From: Halopiger xanaduensis SH-6
GTDB taxonomy: Archaea > Halobacteriota > Halobacteria > Halobacteriales > Natrialbaceae
Direction: 5' to 3'
DNA: 64,000 nt
Assembly (NCBI RefSeq): GCF_000217715.1
Contig: NC_015666.1
Span: 1,252,270-1,316,269, forward strand
Shown here: positions 1,279-40,359 of the stretch, piece by piece
Numbering within the stretch: the first letter of the stretch is position 1
Layout: the number at the start of each line of letters is the position of its first letter
The notes under the pieces: generated by a model
What the model was told of the DNA's origin: nothing
Database searches by the model: none
What the model saw: only the letters and a program-made list of their open reading frames with translations
Translations under genes and position numbers: made by a program

Positions 1279-2307
1279 ATGAGTGATTCGGACTCGAGCG
1301 GCGTGTTGAGCCAACGGGCCGGCGTCGGCGGTCTACGACTGTGGCTGTTGCTCCGGTTGAATCGCTGGCTCTTCACGGCGGCCGTGCTGGCGATCGTGTT
1401 CGTCGTCCTGGTCGGGGCCAGTTGGCTGGGGCTCACGCCCCTGCGGATAATCGTCGCGCGGCACAACGGCACGTTCTGGATCTTCTCGGCGTTCATCGGG
1501 GCGATCATCACCGGCACGTCGATCGTCGTCACGATAAACCAGCTCGTCCTCTCGCAGGAACTCGGCGCCATCGGCGACCAGCGGGATCGCATGCAGAACG
1601 CCATGGACTTCCGTCAGGATCTCGAGGACTCGCTCGAGAAGGAGGACGTGACCCCGCCCGAACCCGCCGCCTTCCTCTACGAACTCGTCGACGGCGTCGA
1701 GGAGGAGGCGAACGACCTCGAGGAGACGGTGGCGCGCGATCACGGCGACGAGATTCAGTCGAAGGTCGCGGACTACGTCGACGACGCCGTCGAGAACGCA
1801 CAGGTCGTCAAGGACGACCTCGAGGACGCCCAGTTCGGGACCTTCGACGTGATCTGGAACGCACTGAACTTCAACTACTCGCGGAAGATCTACGACGCCC
1901 GAAAGATCCGCGCCGACCACGGCGACGACCTCTCCGAGGATGCGGAGGACGAACTCAACGAGATGATCGAGTTGCTGAAGTTCTTCGGCCCGGCCCGCGA
2001 GCACTTCAAGACGCTGTACTTCCAGTGGGAACTGATCAACCTCTCGCGGGCGCTGCTGTACGTCTCCGTGCCGGCCCTCGCCGTCATGGCGCTGCTGATG
2101 ATGTACATCGACGGGCAGGCGCTGCCCGGGACGACGCTCGGGGCCGACAACCTCGTCTGGGTTACGAGCGCCGGCTTCGTCGTCGGCATCGCCCCGTTCG
2201 TCGTCTTCATCGTCTACATCCTTCGGATCGCGACGGTCGCGAAGCGGACGCTCGCGATGGGCCCGTTCATCCTGCGGGAGTCGGAGCGCGACGAGGATCT
2301 CGGGTGA
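1279..2307 (+). CDS. LSQE-family four-helix membrane protein, paralog 2
   Basis: Second member of the tandem family (342 residues). It shares with its neighbours a first helix pair ending in INQLVLSQELG, an acidic helical middle, the motif REHFKTLYFQWELINLSRA before the second helix pair, and the C-terminal signature RIATVAKRTL followed by GPFILRES. It is closer to paralog 3 than to paralog 1, since the FQWELINLSRA stretch is identical in 2 and 3. A TATA-like box (gtatttta, about 1243-1250) lies some 32 bases before the ATG, so it is probably transcribed on its own. No catalytic motif is visible and the function is unknown. Confidence 0.88.
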   Translation: MSDSDSSGVLSQRAGVGGLRLWLLLRLNRWLFTAAVLAIVFVVLVGASWLGLTPLRIIVARHNGTFWIFSAFIGAIITGTSIVVTINQLVLSQELGAIGDQRDRMQNAMDFRQDLEDSLEKEDVTPPEPAAFLYELVDGVEEEANDLEETVARDHGDEIQSKVADYVDDAVENAQVVKDDLEDAQFGTFDVIWNALNFNYSRKIYDARKIRADHGDDLSEDAEDELNEMIELLKFFGPAREHFKTLYFQWELINLSRALLYVSVPALAVMALLMMYIDGQALPGTTLGADNLVWVTSAGFVVGIAPFVVFIVYILRIATVAKRTLAMGPFILRESERDEDLG

Positions 2308-2402
2308 GGGAGACGCTCGCTCGCCGCACCGCTCGGCCGGCCGTCGGGGCCGCGCCGGCCGTAGCTATTTCCGCCGGTCCGTGGTACCCTCGGTCTCCAG
2401 CG

Positions 2403-3440
2403 ATGAGCGACGACGGCTCCCAGCCCGGCGACACGATGGCCGAGCGCAGCACGTCACCGACGGCGAAACACTGGCTCCTGTTGAACGCCAACCGGTGGCT
2501 CGTCACGGCCGCGCTCGCGCTGTTCGTCTTCGTCGGTCTGCTCGCCGTCGCTCGGTTCAGCCCCGTCTCGCTGCAGGCGCTCGTCGGCGCACGGGACCCG
2601 ATCGAGACCGTCTTTCAGGCCCTCGTGACCGCGCTGATCACCGGGGTGACGCTCGTCATCACCATCAACTCGCTGGTGCTCTCGCAGGAGCTCGGCGCCG
2701 TCGAGGACCAGCGCGAGCGGTTCTCCGGCGCGATGGACTTCAGGGAGGACGTCGAGTCGTCGATCGACGCGCCGATCAGCCCGCCGGAACCGGCCTCGTT
2801 CGTGCGGGCCATCGTCGCCGCGTCCGAGGAGCGGGCGAACGATTTCCGGGCCGCCGTTTCCGACGGTCACGACGAGGAGTTCGCCGACCGCGTCGACGAC
2901 TTCGTCGACAACGTCACGACCCACGCCGACTCGATTCGAGGAGACCTCGAGGACGCCCAGTTCGGCACGTACGACGTGCTCAAGGCGGCGCTGGACTACA
3001 ACTATTCGTGGAAGATCTTCCGGCTGCGCCGGATCCGAAACGCCCACGCGGACTCGTTCACCGAGGAGACCCACGCCGCCTACGACGACCTCCTCGAGTC
3101 GCTCGAGCTGTTCGGCCTCGCTCGCGAACACTTCAAGACGCTGTACTTCCAGTGGGAGCTGATCAACCTCTCGCGGGCGATGATGTACGTCGCCGTCCCC
3201 GCGCTGGTCGTCACGATGTCGATGATCCTCTTTTTCGAGCCGAACGTCGTGCGCGGAACCGCCCTCGGGATCGACGCGTTCGTCTGGATCGTCGCGGCGG
3301 CCGCGACCGTCGCGGTCGTCCCGTTCCTGCTGTTGATTTCCTTCATCCTCCGGATCGCGACCGTGGCCAAGCGGACGCTGGCGATCGGCCCGTTCATCCT
3401 GCGGGAGTCGAGCCGCGGCGAGGAGATCGACTGGGAGTGA
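2403..3440 (+). CDS. LSQE-family four-helix membrane protein, paralog 3
   Basis: Third tandem paralog (345 residues). ATG 2403 was chosen because the reading frame is open much further upstream only by running through paralog 2 out of frame. Features: short polar N-terminus, two membrane helices, LSQELGAVEDQRERF, an acidic helical domain with DAQFGTYDV, the FKTLYFQWELINLSRA block, two more helices, and the FILRIATVAKRTL tail. Conservation is strongest at the cytosolic edges of the helix pairs, suggesting an interaction surface rather than an enzyme active site. It converges on ric, which ends 64 bases further on. Confidence 0.88.
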   Translation: MSDDGSQPGDTMAERSTSPTAKHWLLLNANRWLVTAALALFVFVGLLAVARFSPVSLQALVGARDPIETVFQALVTALITGVTLVITINSLVLSQELGAVEDQRERFSGAMDFREDVESSIDAPISPPEPASFVRAIVAASEERANDFRAAVSDGHDEEFADRVDDFVDNVTTHADSIRGDLEDAQFGTYDVLKAALDYNYSWKIFRLRRIRNAHADSFTEETHAAYDDLLESLELFGLAREHFKTLYFQWELINLSRAMMYVAVPALVVTMSMILFFEPNVVRGTALGIDAFVWIVAAAATVAVVPFLLLISFILRIATVAKRTLAIGPFILRESSRGEEIDWE

Positions 3441-36689: not shown

Positions 36690-39101
36690 GTGAGCGACGG
36701 TCCGACGGTCGTCTCCCCCGACTGGCTCGAGACGCACCGCGATGACGACGGAGTAGTCGTCGTCGACGTCCGCGAGGCCCGCGACTACGCGGAACTGGGC
36801 CACGTTCCGGGCGCGGTTAACGTCCCAACCGAGGTGTTCCGCGATCCGAGCAGCGTCGCCGCCGGAAAACTTCCCGCGGCCGACGACTTCGCTGCCCTCA
36901 TGCGGGAGGCCGGCATCCGCGAGGGCGACGCCGTCGTCGCCGTCGACGACGCCAACGGCGTCAACGCGGCCCGCTTTCTGCTCACCGCGATCGTCTACGG
37001 CCACGACGGCCCGCTGTACCTACTCGACGGCGGCCTCGAGGCCTGGCTCGAGGCGGGCGGCAACCTCTCGGACGAGGACCCCGACCCCGAGCCGACGAAC
37101 TACGAAGCCGAACGGGACGCCGGCGCGCCGCTGGTCGACCGCGCTGGCGTCGAGGAAGCGGTCGAGGGCGACGCGGTCGTCGTCGACACCCGGACGGCCG
37201 CCGAGTACGACCAGTCTCACATCCCCGGCGCGGTGCAACTGGGCTGGGAGGACCTGCTCGAGGAGTCGGGGCGGCTGAAACCCGAGGCCGAACTCGAGGA
37301 ACTGTTGGCCGACCGCGGCATCACCCGCGACGAGCGGATCGTCCTCTACTGTAACACTGCACGGCGACTCAGCCACACCTTCGTCGTCCTCCGAGACCTC
37401 GGCTACGAGAACGTCGAGTTCTACGAGGGCAGTCTGACGGATTGGGTCCGCGCCGAGGCACCCGAATGGGACCCCGTCGAACTCAAGGAGCAAGTGCGGG
37501 CCTACTCGAGGGGCGGCGGCTTCGAGGCGATGGTCGAGGAGTTGGGCGACGACGTGCTCAATCGGCTGAAGCTCATCGGGCTCTACCACCAGAAGCAGCG
37601 GGGCTACTTCATGCTCCGGACCCGCGCCCCGGGCGGGATCCTCACCGCCGAGCAGGCCCGGACGATCGGCGAGGTCGCCGACGAGTTCGCCCGCGCCCCC
37701 GACGAGTACGGCGGCGCCGATCAGAACCCCGTCTTCGGCGACGGCTTCCTCGACGCGACCACCCGGCAAGACATTCAGATGCACTGGATCGAGATCGAGG
37801 ACGTCGCCGAAATCTGGGACCGCTACGACGCGGTCGGCCTCGAGACCATGCAGGCCTGCGGCAACTCGGTGCGCAACGTCGTCGGCTGCCCCGCCTCGGG
37901 GATCGACCCGGACGAGACCGTCGACGTCCAGCCGGTCGTCGAGCGGGTCAGCCAGCGGTTCCTCGGTGACCACCACTACGCGAACCTCCCGCGGAAGTTC
38001 AAGGTCAGCGTCACTGGCTGTCACGAGAACTGCGCCCGCGCGCAGATCCAGGACCTCGGGCTGACGCCCGCCCGGAAGGACGGCCGCGAGGGGTTCGTCG
38101 CGCAGGTCGGCGGCGGCCTCTCGGACGGCCCGCGGATCGCTAGCGACATCGACCTGTTCGTCGACCCCGAGGACGTCGACGATCTCGTCGCCGCGATGGC
38201 CGACCTGTTCATGGACCACGGTAGCTACCTCGATACGGCCGTCAACCGGCTTCGTTTCCTCGTCGAAGAATTGGGGCCCGAAACGTTCCGCGAGGAACTC
38301 GAGACCTACGCCGATTTCACGTTCGAATCTGCCGCGGATGCCGAGCGCCTGACGACCGACTACCGCGGCGACCACGTCGGGGTCCACGAGCAGGCCGACG
38401 GCCGCTCCTACGTCGGGTTGAACGTCCCGACCGGGCGGATGGGTGGCGACGACCTCGCGGAACTGGCCGCTCTCGCCGACGAGTTGGGCGGCGGCGAACT
38501 GCGACTGACGCCCAACCAGAACGTCCTCGTTCCCCACCTCGGGGACGATGACCTCGAGCGGTTCCTCGAGCACCCGCTGCTCGAGCGGTACAGCCCCGAT
38601 CCGGGCCCGTTCACGCGCGGGATCGTCACCTGCACGGGCCGGGAGTTCTGCAACTACGGGATCATCGAGACGAAGAATCGCGCGGTCAAGTGGGCTCGCC
38701 AGTTGGACGAGTGGGCCGAAGAAGTCGGCATCGCGGACGACCACGACGCGATTCGAGTCCACATGTCCGGCTGCGCGGCCTCCTGTGCCCAGCCCCAGTT
38801 GGGCGACTTCGGACTGCGCGGCGAGGTCTACCGCGACGACTTCGAGTCCGGTCGCGCAGCGGACATGGGGCTGGGCGGCGATCTCGGCGACGACCAGTTC
38901 ATCGACTGGCTCGTCGGCAAGATCCCGATCGAGGACGTGCCGAGCGTCATCGAGGCGACGGTGCAGGCCTACGAGGACGACCGCGAGCCCGACGAGTCGT
39001 TTGCCGAGTGGACAAACCGCACGTCGAACGCGGACCTGCGCGAGATCATCGCCGAACAGCCGGCGCGCGATCCGCCGGCGATCGGGACGGAGGTGAGCTG
39101 A
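36690..39101 (+). CDS. Tandem rhodanese-siroheme sulfite/nitrite reductase fusion
   Basis: 803 residues, GTG start with good Shine-Dalgarno. Two rhodanese domains (about 1-125 and 140-270): the first lacks the catalytic Cys, the second has it (Cys221 in VLYCNTARR). Then the nitrite/sulfite reductase core, two ferredoxin-like halves and siroheme/4Fe-4S domains. Cluster ligands are Cys648 and Cys654 (CTGREFC) and Cys695 and Cys699 (CAASC); GCHENCARAQ lies in the first half. It reduces sulfite or nitrite by six electrons. The next gene starts one base after its stop and probably feeds it electrons. Length is well above the usual 550-600 because of the rhodanese part. Confidence 0.92.
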   Translation: MSDGPTVVSPDWLETHRDDDGVVVVDVREARDYAELGHVPGAVNVPTEVFRDPSSVAAGKLPAADDFAALMREAGIREGDAVVAVDDANGVNAARFLLTAIVYGHDGPLYLLDGGLEAWLEAGGNLSDEDPDPEPTNYEAERDAGAPLVDRAGVEEAVEGDAVVVDTRTAAEYDQSHIPGAVQLGWEDLLEESGRLKPEAELEELLADRGITRDERIVLYCNTARRLSHTFVVLRDLGYENVEFYEGSLTDWVRAEAPEWDPVELKEQVRAYSRGGGFEAMVEELGDDVLNRLKLIGLYHQKQRGYFMLRTRAPGGILTAEQARTIGEVADEFARAPDEYGGADQNPVFGDGFLDATTRQDIQMHWIEIEDVAEIWDRYDAVGLETMQACGNSVRNVVGCPASGIDPDETVDVQPVVERVSQRFLGDHHYANLPRKFKVSVTGCHENCARAQIQDLGLTPARKDGREGFVAQVGGGLSDGPRIASDIDLFVDPEDVDDLVAAMADLFMDHGSYLDTAVNRLRFLVEELGPETFREELETYADFTFESAADAERLTTDYRGDHVGVHEQADGRSYVGLNVPTGRMGGDDLAELAALADELGGGELRLTPNQNVLVPHLGDDDLERFLEHPLLERYSPDPGPFTRGIVTCTGREFCNYGIIETKNRAVKWARQLDEWAEEVGIADDHDAIRVHMSGCAASCAQPQLGDFGLRGEVYRDDFESGRAADMGLGGDLGDDQFIDWLVGKIPIEDVPSVIEATVQAYEDDREPDESFAEWTNRTSNADLREIIAEQPARDPPAIGTEVS

Positions 39102-39102
39102 G

Positions 39103-40359
39103 ATGTCGGGAGCGAATCAGCCGCGGGTTCCCGATCCGAACGGATCGACGAAATCGCCGAAGGGCGTCGGAAACGACCCGCGAGAGCAGAATCCCGACGT
39201 CGAGGAAGCGCCGGGCAAGATCTGGTTCCGCGATTTGGACGAGGCCGTCATCGAGGCGGATCGCTGCATCCAGTGTGCCTCCTGCGTCGCGGCCTGTCCC
39301 TCGGACTCCATCGGCATCGACGCCGAGGAGAAACGACCCACGCTGGTCAAGATGTGTACCGGCTGTTCGCGCTGCTGGGACTTCTGTCCCCGCAGCGGAC
39401 TCCGCTACGAGCGCGCCCTCGAGTTGCTCGACCAAGAGCGGTCGCTCGCGGAGCCCGAAACGTACGCTGCGCGGGCGACCGACGCGGCCGCTGACGCCGG
39501 CCAGGACGGCGGCGCCGTGACCGCGCTGCTGGCCGAGCTGCTCGCAGCCGGCGAGATCGACGGGGCCGTCGTCGCGCGCGAGAGCGAGGACGAACCGTTG
39601 CGCGGCGAGGCGTTCCTCGCGACCTCCCATGCGGACCTACTCGAGGCTGGCGGGAGTATCTACACACAGACGATGGGGCTGGGGCAGATCGACGACCTGC
39701 TCGCCGATGCGGATCTGGGGCCAAACCCCGACCTCGCGCTCGTCGGCACCCCCTGCGTGATCCAGGGGGCGACCGCTCTCGACCGCTACGGCCACGAGCC
39801 GGCCGATCCGATCGCGCTGACGGTCGCGCTGATGTGCACCCGCACCTTCGAGCACGAACGACTGCTCTCGCAGATCGAGTCGTACGACGTCGATCCCGAG
39901 GCGGTCGAGAAACTCGACATCAGGGACGGCACCCTCGCCGCCTTCGACGACGACGGCGAGATCCTGCTCGAGACCGACGTCGAGGAGTTCGACGCGGCGG
40001 GGCTGCGGGGCTGCGACGAGTGCGCGGACTTCGTCGGCGGCGCGGCCGACATCAGCGCCGGCAACGTCGGCAGCGAGGACGGCTACTCGACCGTCGTCGT
40101 CCGCACCGAGAACGGGCGAGACGTGTGGAGGGAGGCCGCCGACGGGCTCGAGACGACCGAAATCGACCGGCCCGAGGCGCTCGAGAAGATCGCCGCCTGG
40201 AACGAGCGGCGCGCGAAGTCGATCCTGCCGCGGGAGTTCGACCCCGAGGCCGAGATCGGTATCACGTACGAGCGCCACCGCGAGGCCTACGACGGCACCG
40301 ACCGCGAGCCGCAGCCGCTGAACCCGGCGCGGGTTCACCAGTACGAGGAGTGGTGTTAG
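39103..40359 (+). CDS. F420 hydrogenase/dehydrogenase beta-subunit-like Fe-S flavoprotein
   Basis: 418 residues of the FrhB/FpoF family. Two [4Fe-4S] motifs near the N-terminus: Cys55/58/61/65 (CIQCASCVAACP) and Cys85/88/91/95 (CTGCSRCWDFCP). Then the FrhB N- and C-terminal domains with GGAVTALLAELL, SIYTQTMGLG, VGTPCVIQGATAL and RGCDECADFVGGAADISAGNVG. The family binds FAD and passes electrons between F420H2 and Fe-S clusters. Shine-Dalgarno ggaggtgag at 39089-39097, one-base gap from the reductase: clearly one operon. Together they resemble a split F420H2-dependent sulfite reductase. Confidence 0.92.
   Translation: MSGANQPRVPDPNGSTKSPKGVGNDPREQNPDVEEAPGKIWFRDLDEAVIEADRCIQCASCVAACPSDSIGIDAEEKRPTLVKMCTGCSRCWDFCPRSGLRYERALELLDQERSLAEPETYAARATDAAADAGQDGGAVTALLAELLAAGEIDGAVVARESEDEPLRGEAFLATSHADLLEAGGSIYTQTMGLGQIDDLLADADLGPNPDLALVGTPCVIQGATALDRYGHEPADPIALTVALMCTRTFEHERLLSQIESYDVDPEAVEKLDIRDGTLAAFDDDGEILLETDVEEFDAAGLRGCDECADFVGGAADISAGNVGSEDGYSTVVVRTENGRDVWREAADGLETTEIDRPEALEKIAAWNERRAKSILPREFDPEAEIGITYERHREAYDGTDREPQPLNPARVHQYEEWC

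Follow-up and report, generated by a model that had tools for sequence, protein, structure and literature searches.

Which electron donor and which substrate serve a siroheme reductase that is fused to a rhodanese and followed by an FrhB-family gene is the question raised by two neighboring genes of the haloarchaeon Halopiger xanaduensis SH-6. The genes occupy positions 36690–40359 of a 64,000-nucleotide stretch of contig NC_015666.1 (positions 1,252,270 to 1,316,269), referred to as the window throughout, and belong to a 4.36-Mb genome, assembled as 4 contigs, that encodes three siroheme reductases. Our analysis suggests that they probably specify an F420H2-dependent assimilatory sulfite reductase of the aFsr type, an assignment that is kept apart here from the role of the rhodanese.

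A rhodanese-siroheme reductase fusion followed by an FrhB-family gene

The first open reading frame (36690–39101, plus strand, GTG start) encodes a protein of 803 aa, the predicted rhodanese-siroheme sulfite reductase fusion of the aFsr-alpha type (alpha subunit), in which two rhodanese domains (residues ~1–258) precede a four-domain siroheme reductase (residues 262–787); Pfam reports tandem Rhodanese (5.7e-36), NIR_SIR (3.2e-50) and NIR_SIR_ferr matches. As judged by Pfam and a residue check, the first rhodanese domain (36690–37109, plus strand) contains no cysteine and is regarded as structural and non-catalytic, and the second (37110–37463, plus strand) carries the predicted catalytic Cys221 (codon 37350–37352) in the loop CNTARR. 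The siroheme/[4Fe-4S] sulfite reductase part extends over 37473–39050 on the same strand, and the AlphaFold model of the whole subunit has a predicted local distance difference test (pLDDT) score of 84.

A single base (tga-g-atg) separates this gene from the second one on the same strand (39103–40359, ATG start), whose 418-aa product is a predicted F420H2-oxidase subunit of the FrhB family and of the aFsr-beta type (beta subunit). Pfam finds two 4Fe-4S motifs, FrhB_FdhB_N (3.8e-20) and FrhB_FdhB_C (1.4e-35). The two N-terminal ferredoxin-type [4Fe-4S] motifs (C55, 58, 61, 65 and C85, 88, 91, 95) are encoded at 39247–39396 (plus strand), and the FrhB_N and FrhB_C domains, with flavin adenine dinucleotide (FAD) loops located after PMC3930138 and the ligands of a third cluster (C218, C245, C304, C307), at 39460–40167 (plus strand). 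An earlier note made from the window's sequence had described the same arrangement, and its elements are borne out: the tandem rhodanese-siroheme reductase fusion, the FrhB-family gene with two [4Fe-4S] motifs after one base, the cluster ligands in CTGREFC (residues 648–654) and CAASC (695–699), and a catalytic-type cysteine confined to the second rhodanese domain, where Cys221 is the sole cysteine of residues 1–258.

Conservation and phylogeny of the gene pair

Relatives were sought in 84,980 species genomes. This gave 60 loci of related siroheme reductases that share the active-site motif K-F-K, and FrhB is the next gene downstream, on the same strand, in 58 of them. One of the two remaining loci (L045) stops at a contig end, and the other (L069) encodes a divergent Thermoplasmatota protein in a genome that has no cofD match either. 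By contrast, no FrhB gene lies within 1.5 kb at any of 27 NasD (K-F-N) loci or of 3 K-W-K loci, so that the frequencies compare as 58/59 versus 0/30, the related genomes among these not being independent.

The fusion itself was found in 19 of 145 sampled Halobacteria genomes (the window's included) from at least four families, and all of these fusions have FrhB as the next gene and the loop CNTARR. FrhB follows directly in all 24 fusion loci besides the window, as well as in 18/18 fusion loci drawn from the sampled Halobacteria genomes, some of which may repeat genomes of the larger scan. The pairing, whose absence elsewhere would have told against the earlier note, is accordingly conserved, and the retention of every part and of the gene pair across dozens of genomes is far more than chance would produce.

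Fusions form one group in the trees of both subunits (Shimodaira–Hasegawa-like approximate likelihood ratio test, SH-aLRT, 99 and 100), and so do the bacterial pairs (SH-aLRT 100 and 99). The simplest reading of these trees is a single fusion event followed by coinheritance of both subunits. The beta subunits paired with fusions are without the long acidic N-terminal extension, including a Cys-rich stretch CGCGTSCGCSG, that was observed in stand-alone haloarchaeal aFsr-beta proteins (L010:8558–8942, L030:7658–8045). Orphan aFsr-beta genes, coding for FrhB with two [4Fe-4S] motifs and having no siroheme partner, were also noticed, one near the end of contig C1 of the H. xanaduensis genome (G000:C1:435082–436305; L011:9059–10342) and a further one at L131:5801–7084.

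Predicted electron donor and active site

Among solved structures, the beta subunit is closest to the F420-reducing subunit of a CO dehydrogenase (8RIU, 7.6e-42), then to Fsr (7NP8, 9e-39) and then to FrhB; 8RIU (PMC11493965) and Fsr (7NP8/7NPA; PMC10229431) are F420 enzymes with measured activity. In FrhB, the FAD is held by the loop QDGG and by a loop bearing a cluster cysteine (PMC3930138). The corresponding pyrophosphate loop QDGG134–137 and C218, C245, C304 and C307 are invariant in our beta-subunit alignment, and the isoalloxazine loop CTRTF245–249 contains the cluster cysteine, so that, of the FAD/F420 pocket residues on which the earlier note had made its idea depend, the FAD loops are present, as are the cluster cysteines. 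On the evidence as a whole, the reductase is very likely driven by F420H2.

In the alpha subunit, the cluster ligands C648, C654, C695 and C699 are accompanied by the predicted sulfite-binding residues R310, R395 and K436, which are invariant in the alignment, and K438, which is nearly so. Sulfite in Fsr is held by four basic residues, R355, R423, K460 and K462 (PMC10229431), and the correspondence between the two sets was established by motif, not by superposition. The subunit as a whole is, judged by its sequence, of the assimilatory, NirA-like siroheme type, and sulfite is very likely its main substrate. As a separate observation, four further conserved cysteines, C390, C400, C444 and C448 (codons within 37857–38033), are located in the N-terminal half of the siroheme reductase; they could serve as ligands of an additional cluster or touch the siroheme, and C444 is replaced by Ser in L129.

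Linkage of aFsr genes to F420 synthesis and sulfate assimilation

Stand-alone homologues connect this enzyme family with both pathways. Of 46 stand-alone aFsr loci in haloarchaea, 7 (from Halegenticoccus, Halogranum, Halobonum and Halarchaeum) have cofG as the immediate upstream neighbor on the same strand, and 6 have cofH just downstream. In the bacterial family Rubrobacteraceae, 33 of 39 genomes match the beta-subunit profile; the order cysH-SiR-FrhB-sat-cysC, SiR denoting the siroheme reductase gene, is collinear in 14/14 genomes examined and is extended upstream to cofD-cofC-cofE-cysH-SiR-FrhB-sat-cysC in 12 of them, the Rubrobacteraceae loci at hand being L193–L206, L022, L037, L042 and L045. 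On a Thermomicrobiaceae contig, siroheme-synthesis genes are found just upstream of the SiR-FrhB pair. It is difficult to account for clusters of this composition if the enzyme is anything other than a sulfite reductase that serves sulfate assimilation and depends on F420. The open-access literature that we searched contained no description of the Rubrobacteraceae cof-cys-SiR-FrhB cluster, and an F420-linked sulfate assimilation cluster in bacteria is apparently undescribed, Rxyl_0964 of Rubrobacter xylanophilus having been included in the Fsr-N tree of PMC3448663. A protein of 116–120 aa with no Pfam match is encoded between FrhB and sat at L022:8922–9272, L042:6562–6924 and L044:3110–3466.

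The genome of H. xanaduensis itself has cofD, a gene that scored over the family cut-off in 18 of 22 genomes tested. No PF01747-type Sat was found in it, and the two PAPS_reduct matches examined are CysD-like rather than CysH-like. One of them (L133:871–1842, minus strand) stands beside a PHO4/CysP-like permease (1939–3060, plus strand).

Possible contribution of the rhodanese domains

The six-residue loop with a catalytic-type cysteine in the second domain is a feature of tandem thiosulfate sulfurtransferases, and the rhodanese fold matches obtained by structure comparison include 1E0C. The loop CNTARR, which we take to resemble the C-x-T-x-x-R loop of Azotobacter RhdA, and its Cys221 are unchanged in all 25 fusion loci, the window's among them, down to ~50% identity. 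When a rhodanese cleaves thiosulfate, sulfite is set free. In Halanaerobium, thiosulfate is converted to sulfide by separate rhodaneses together with a sulfite reductase (PMC5497025), and by analogy the fused rhodanese may, tentatively, be regarded as a supplier of sulfite to the attached siroheme enzyme. We consider this role the best-motivated one because the sulfite arising from thiosulfate is the substrate of that enzyme.

In the resulting model, F420H2 would transfer a hydride to the FAD of the FrhB-like subunit, from which electrons would pass through the three [4Fe-4S] clusters of the beta subunit to the siroheme-[4Fe-4S] center of an associated alpha subunit, where sulfite would be reduced to sulfide by six electrons. 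Cys221 would cleave thiosulfate, or another sulfane-sulfonate donor, and keep the sulfane sulfur as a persulfide, the sulfite set free going directly to the attached siroheme site. Rhodanese and reductase together would bring both sulfur atoms of thiosulfate into assimilable form. That one complex turns thiosulfate into sulfide in this way, with the rhodanese channeling sulfite to an F420H2-driven siroheme center, is conceivable, though on balance doubtful.

The earlier note had instead proposed persulfide delivery, a possible function for which we encountered no specific evidence and which suits the fusion less well than sulfite release does. On this reading, the same F420H2-dependent sulfite reductase would carry a rhodanese that hands sulfane sulfur through Cys221 to acceptors such as Fe-S assembly or tRNA thiolation, and the fusion would co-localize two steps of sulfur assimilation. 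The second domain does have a competent cysteine in an invariant loop, and the nearest relative in the same genome, a stand-alone tandem rhodanese with 54% identity and the same CNTARR loop, indicates that such a domain is functional in its own right. However, the rhodanese cannot be loaded from the product sulfide without an oxidant, and no recognizable sulfur-acceptor gene recurs in the fusion flanks, which leaves persulfide delivery not very probable. This stand-alone relative stands beside a rhodanese of the classical CRIGERSS type, the two making up a divergent pair of tandem rhodaneses (G000:C3:658.9–660.7 kb; L156, L157).

Nitrite reduction, detoxification and ferredoxin as alternatives

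Returning to sulfite reduction driven by F420H2, we considered whether the enzyme is mainly an F420H2-dependent nitrite reductase, serving ammonia assimilation or nitrite detoxification. The best PDB matches of the reductase half are four-domain NiR/NirA proteins, plant nitrite reductases being the closest solved structures, and the top NCBIfam match of the 803-aa protein is ferredoxin-nitrite reductase, below its cut-off. Moreover, nitrite and not sulfite is reduced by an F420-dependent Fsr of group II (PMC9295563), and Fsr itself accepts nitrite in vitro (PMC10202398); by the same analogy, nitrite is likely to be reduced as well by the enzyme studied here. We nevertheless downgraded a nitrite reductase identity on the basis of the active-site contrast and the gene neighborhoods. 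The fusion has K436-F-K438, whereas the genome's own NasD, located beside a nitrate-reductase-like gene, has K-F-N; the features of NasD are wanting in the window gene, in which K-x-N is absent and which belongs to an isolated two-gene unit with an FrhB partner. Bacterial homologues lie between cysH and sat, and a rhodanese would be of no obvious use to a nitrite reductase. Of the two substrates that the earlier note had left side by side, sulfite is therefore retained and nitrite, given the K-x-K site and the bacterial sulfate-assimilation neighbors, is less likely; nitrite reduction as the main activity is unlikely.

The distribution of the three siroheme reductases in H. xanaduensis follows the same line. 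The window fusion (LPRKFKVSVTGC) is followed by FrhB, and at C3:620 kb an FrhB gene overlaps the end of a stand-alone enzyme (LPRKFKITITGC). The third enzyme, at C3:863 kb (MPRKFNISVSGC), adjoins the molybdopterin nitrate-reductase-like gene, has no FrhB and is interpreted as the nitrite reductase NasD. Because FrhB is present at the first two loci and absent from the third, it accompanies K-F-K enzymes and not NasD. A third haloarchaeal class of siroheme reductase (LPRKWKVSVTGC; L101–L103 and others), ~55% identical to NasD and with no FrhB nearby, was also observed, possibly a ferredoxin-type sulfite reductase that replaces aFsr in some genera.

Detoxification or respiration of sulfite or thiosulfate, in place of assimilation, is quite unlikely. 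Methanogen Fsr detoxifies sulfite, a TauE sulfite exporter is encoded in 9 of 14 Rubrobacteraceae clusters, and the presence of a stand-alone aFsr in about 13 of the 19 fusion genomes (none of its beta type was found in the other 6) suggests a second role for the fused copy. Against this, the enzyme is predicted to be soluble, no membrane or quinone partner gene recurs nearby, the bacterial clusters are assimilatory, and in one genome that is 98% complete (G165) the fusion is the sole NIR_SIR protein. Very unlikely, finally, is an FrhB-like subunit fed by ferredoxin with F420 uninvolved, as in plant HCAR, which belongs to the FrhB superfamily and is a foldseek match (5DQR, E 5e-13), related siroheme reductases likewise using ferredoxin: an HCAR-like enzyme was downgraded, as F420 enzymes all rank first among solved structures by sequence and by fold (HCAR is not among the best 60 sequence matches of the beta subunit and stands at rank 15 by foldseek, below all F420 enzymes) and cofC/D/E/G/H are physically linked in two unrelated lineages.

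Several points weigh against the assignment as an F420H2-dependent sulfite reductase. The Lys of the Fsr FAD loop (KSKY) corresponds to Ile186 in the beta subunit, although this position is Asn in 8RIU, for which F420 reduction is proven, and the AlphaFold model of the beta subunit (pLDDT 62) is too poor for an analysis of the pocket or of surface charge. The flanks of the other fusion loci contain cof or sulfur genes in 0 of 24 cases, so that the linkage to F420 derives from stand-alone homologues; sulfur genes do not recur there, the neighbors in Natrinema being, as named by eye, a SepF-like protein, a helix-turn-helix regulator and citrate synthase. The active-site residues are not decisive for the substrate, given the preference of a group II Fsr for nitrite, and because most sampled fusion genomes also hold a stand-alone aFsr, the fused enzyme may act on a substrate of its own. 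In the literature searched, we found no biochemical assay of any aFsr.

Implications and comparison with known systems

What F420 does in halophilic archaea has been called undetermined or enigmatic (PMC8498797, PMC8305020). If correct, our assignment would provide a physiological use of F420 in haloarchaeal sulfur assimilation and, with the rhodanese, a sulfite reductase that generates its own substrate, the fusion adding the specific hypothesis that sulfite is produced and consumed inside one complex. Both genes would then be misnamed by automatic annotation, for which the best models are ferredoxin-nitrite reductase and coenzyme F420 hydrogenase beta.

The pair as such is not new. From the gene context in a small number of genomes, Haloterrigena and others, Susanti and Mukhopadhyay predicted aFsr in 2012 as a putative assimilatory sulfite reductase that uses F420H2 (PMC3448663). 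It likewise consists of an aSir-type alpha subunit and a beta subunit homologous to Fsr-N (FrhB with two N-terminal [4Fe-4S] motifs), encoded by neighboring haloarchaeal genes. In contrast, the alpha subunit studied here has a tandem rhodanese, a word absent from the main text of PMC3448663, its beta subunit is without the Cys-containing extension of the stand-alone form, and both fall into a separate clade in the two trees. In 2024, 19 of 529 halobacterial NirA proteins were counted as fused to a rhodanese domain (cluster 195.2; PMC11237513), very probably the same fusion family; the part of that source available to us notes the fusion and suggests sulfur metabolism, with no link to an FrhB partner or F420. 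The present analysis adds the recognition that the rhodanese fusion is itself an aFsr and is paired with a beta subunit of its own; the fusions make up a clade of single origin, in which the rhodanese loop is invariant and the sulfite residues are conserved. It also connects the aFsr family, in two domains of life, with the synthesis of F420 and with sulfate assimilation, the cofG/cofH and cofC/D/E neighborhoods turning the 2012 proposal into a concrete, testable assignment.

Other known systems resemble the pair in part. M. tuberculosis NirA, described as a sulfite reductase, and plant ferredoxin-nitrite reductase have the same four-domain siroheme-[4Fe-4S] fold but take electrons from ferredoxin and have neither an FrhB partner nor a rhodanese. 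The closest solved relatives of the beta subunit, the CO dehydrogenase zeta subunit (8RIU) and FwdI (8RJA) of Ca. Ethanoperedens, with F420 activity shown (PMC11493965), are likewise stand-alone FrhB-type modules wired to another redox enzyme; their partners, however, are CO dehydrogenase and formylmethanofuran dehydrogenase, and they work in the direction of F420 reduction. Methanogen Fsr (7NP8, 7NPA; PMC10229431) has in common with the window pair the F420H2-oxidase module, two N-terminal [4Fe-4S] motifs, the FAD loop and four basic residues, but is one polypeptide with a Dsr-like reductase, an inserted ferredoxin domain and no rhodanese. The suggestion that the two genes are a methanogen Fsr split in two was rejected: the reductase half is NirA-like (E 1e-83 to plant nitrite reductase versus 1e-7 to Fsr), and Pfam finds no Fer4 domain in the 803-aa protein, that is, no ferredoxin insert as in Fsr-C. 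Overall, as far as sequence relationships indicate, Fsr and the window pair are the same kind of electron-input module set on different sulfite reductases.

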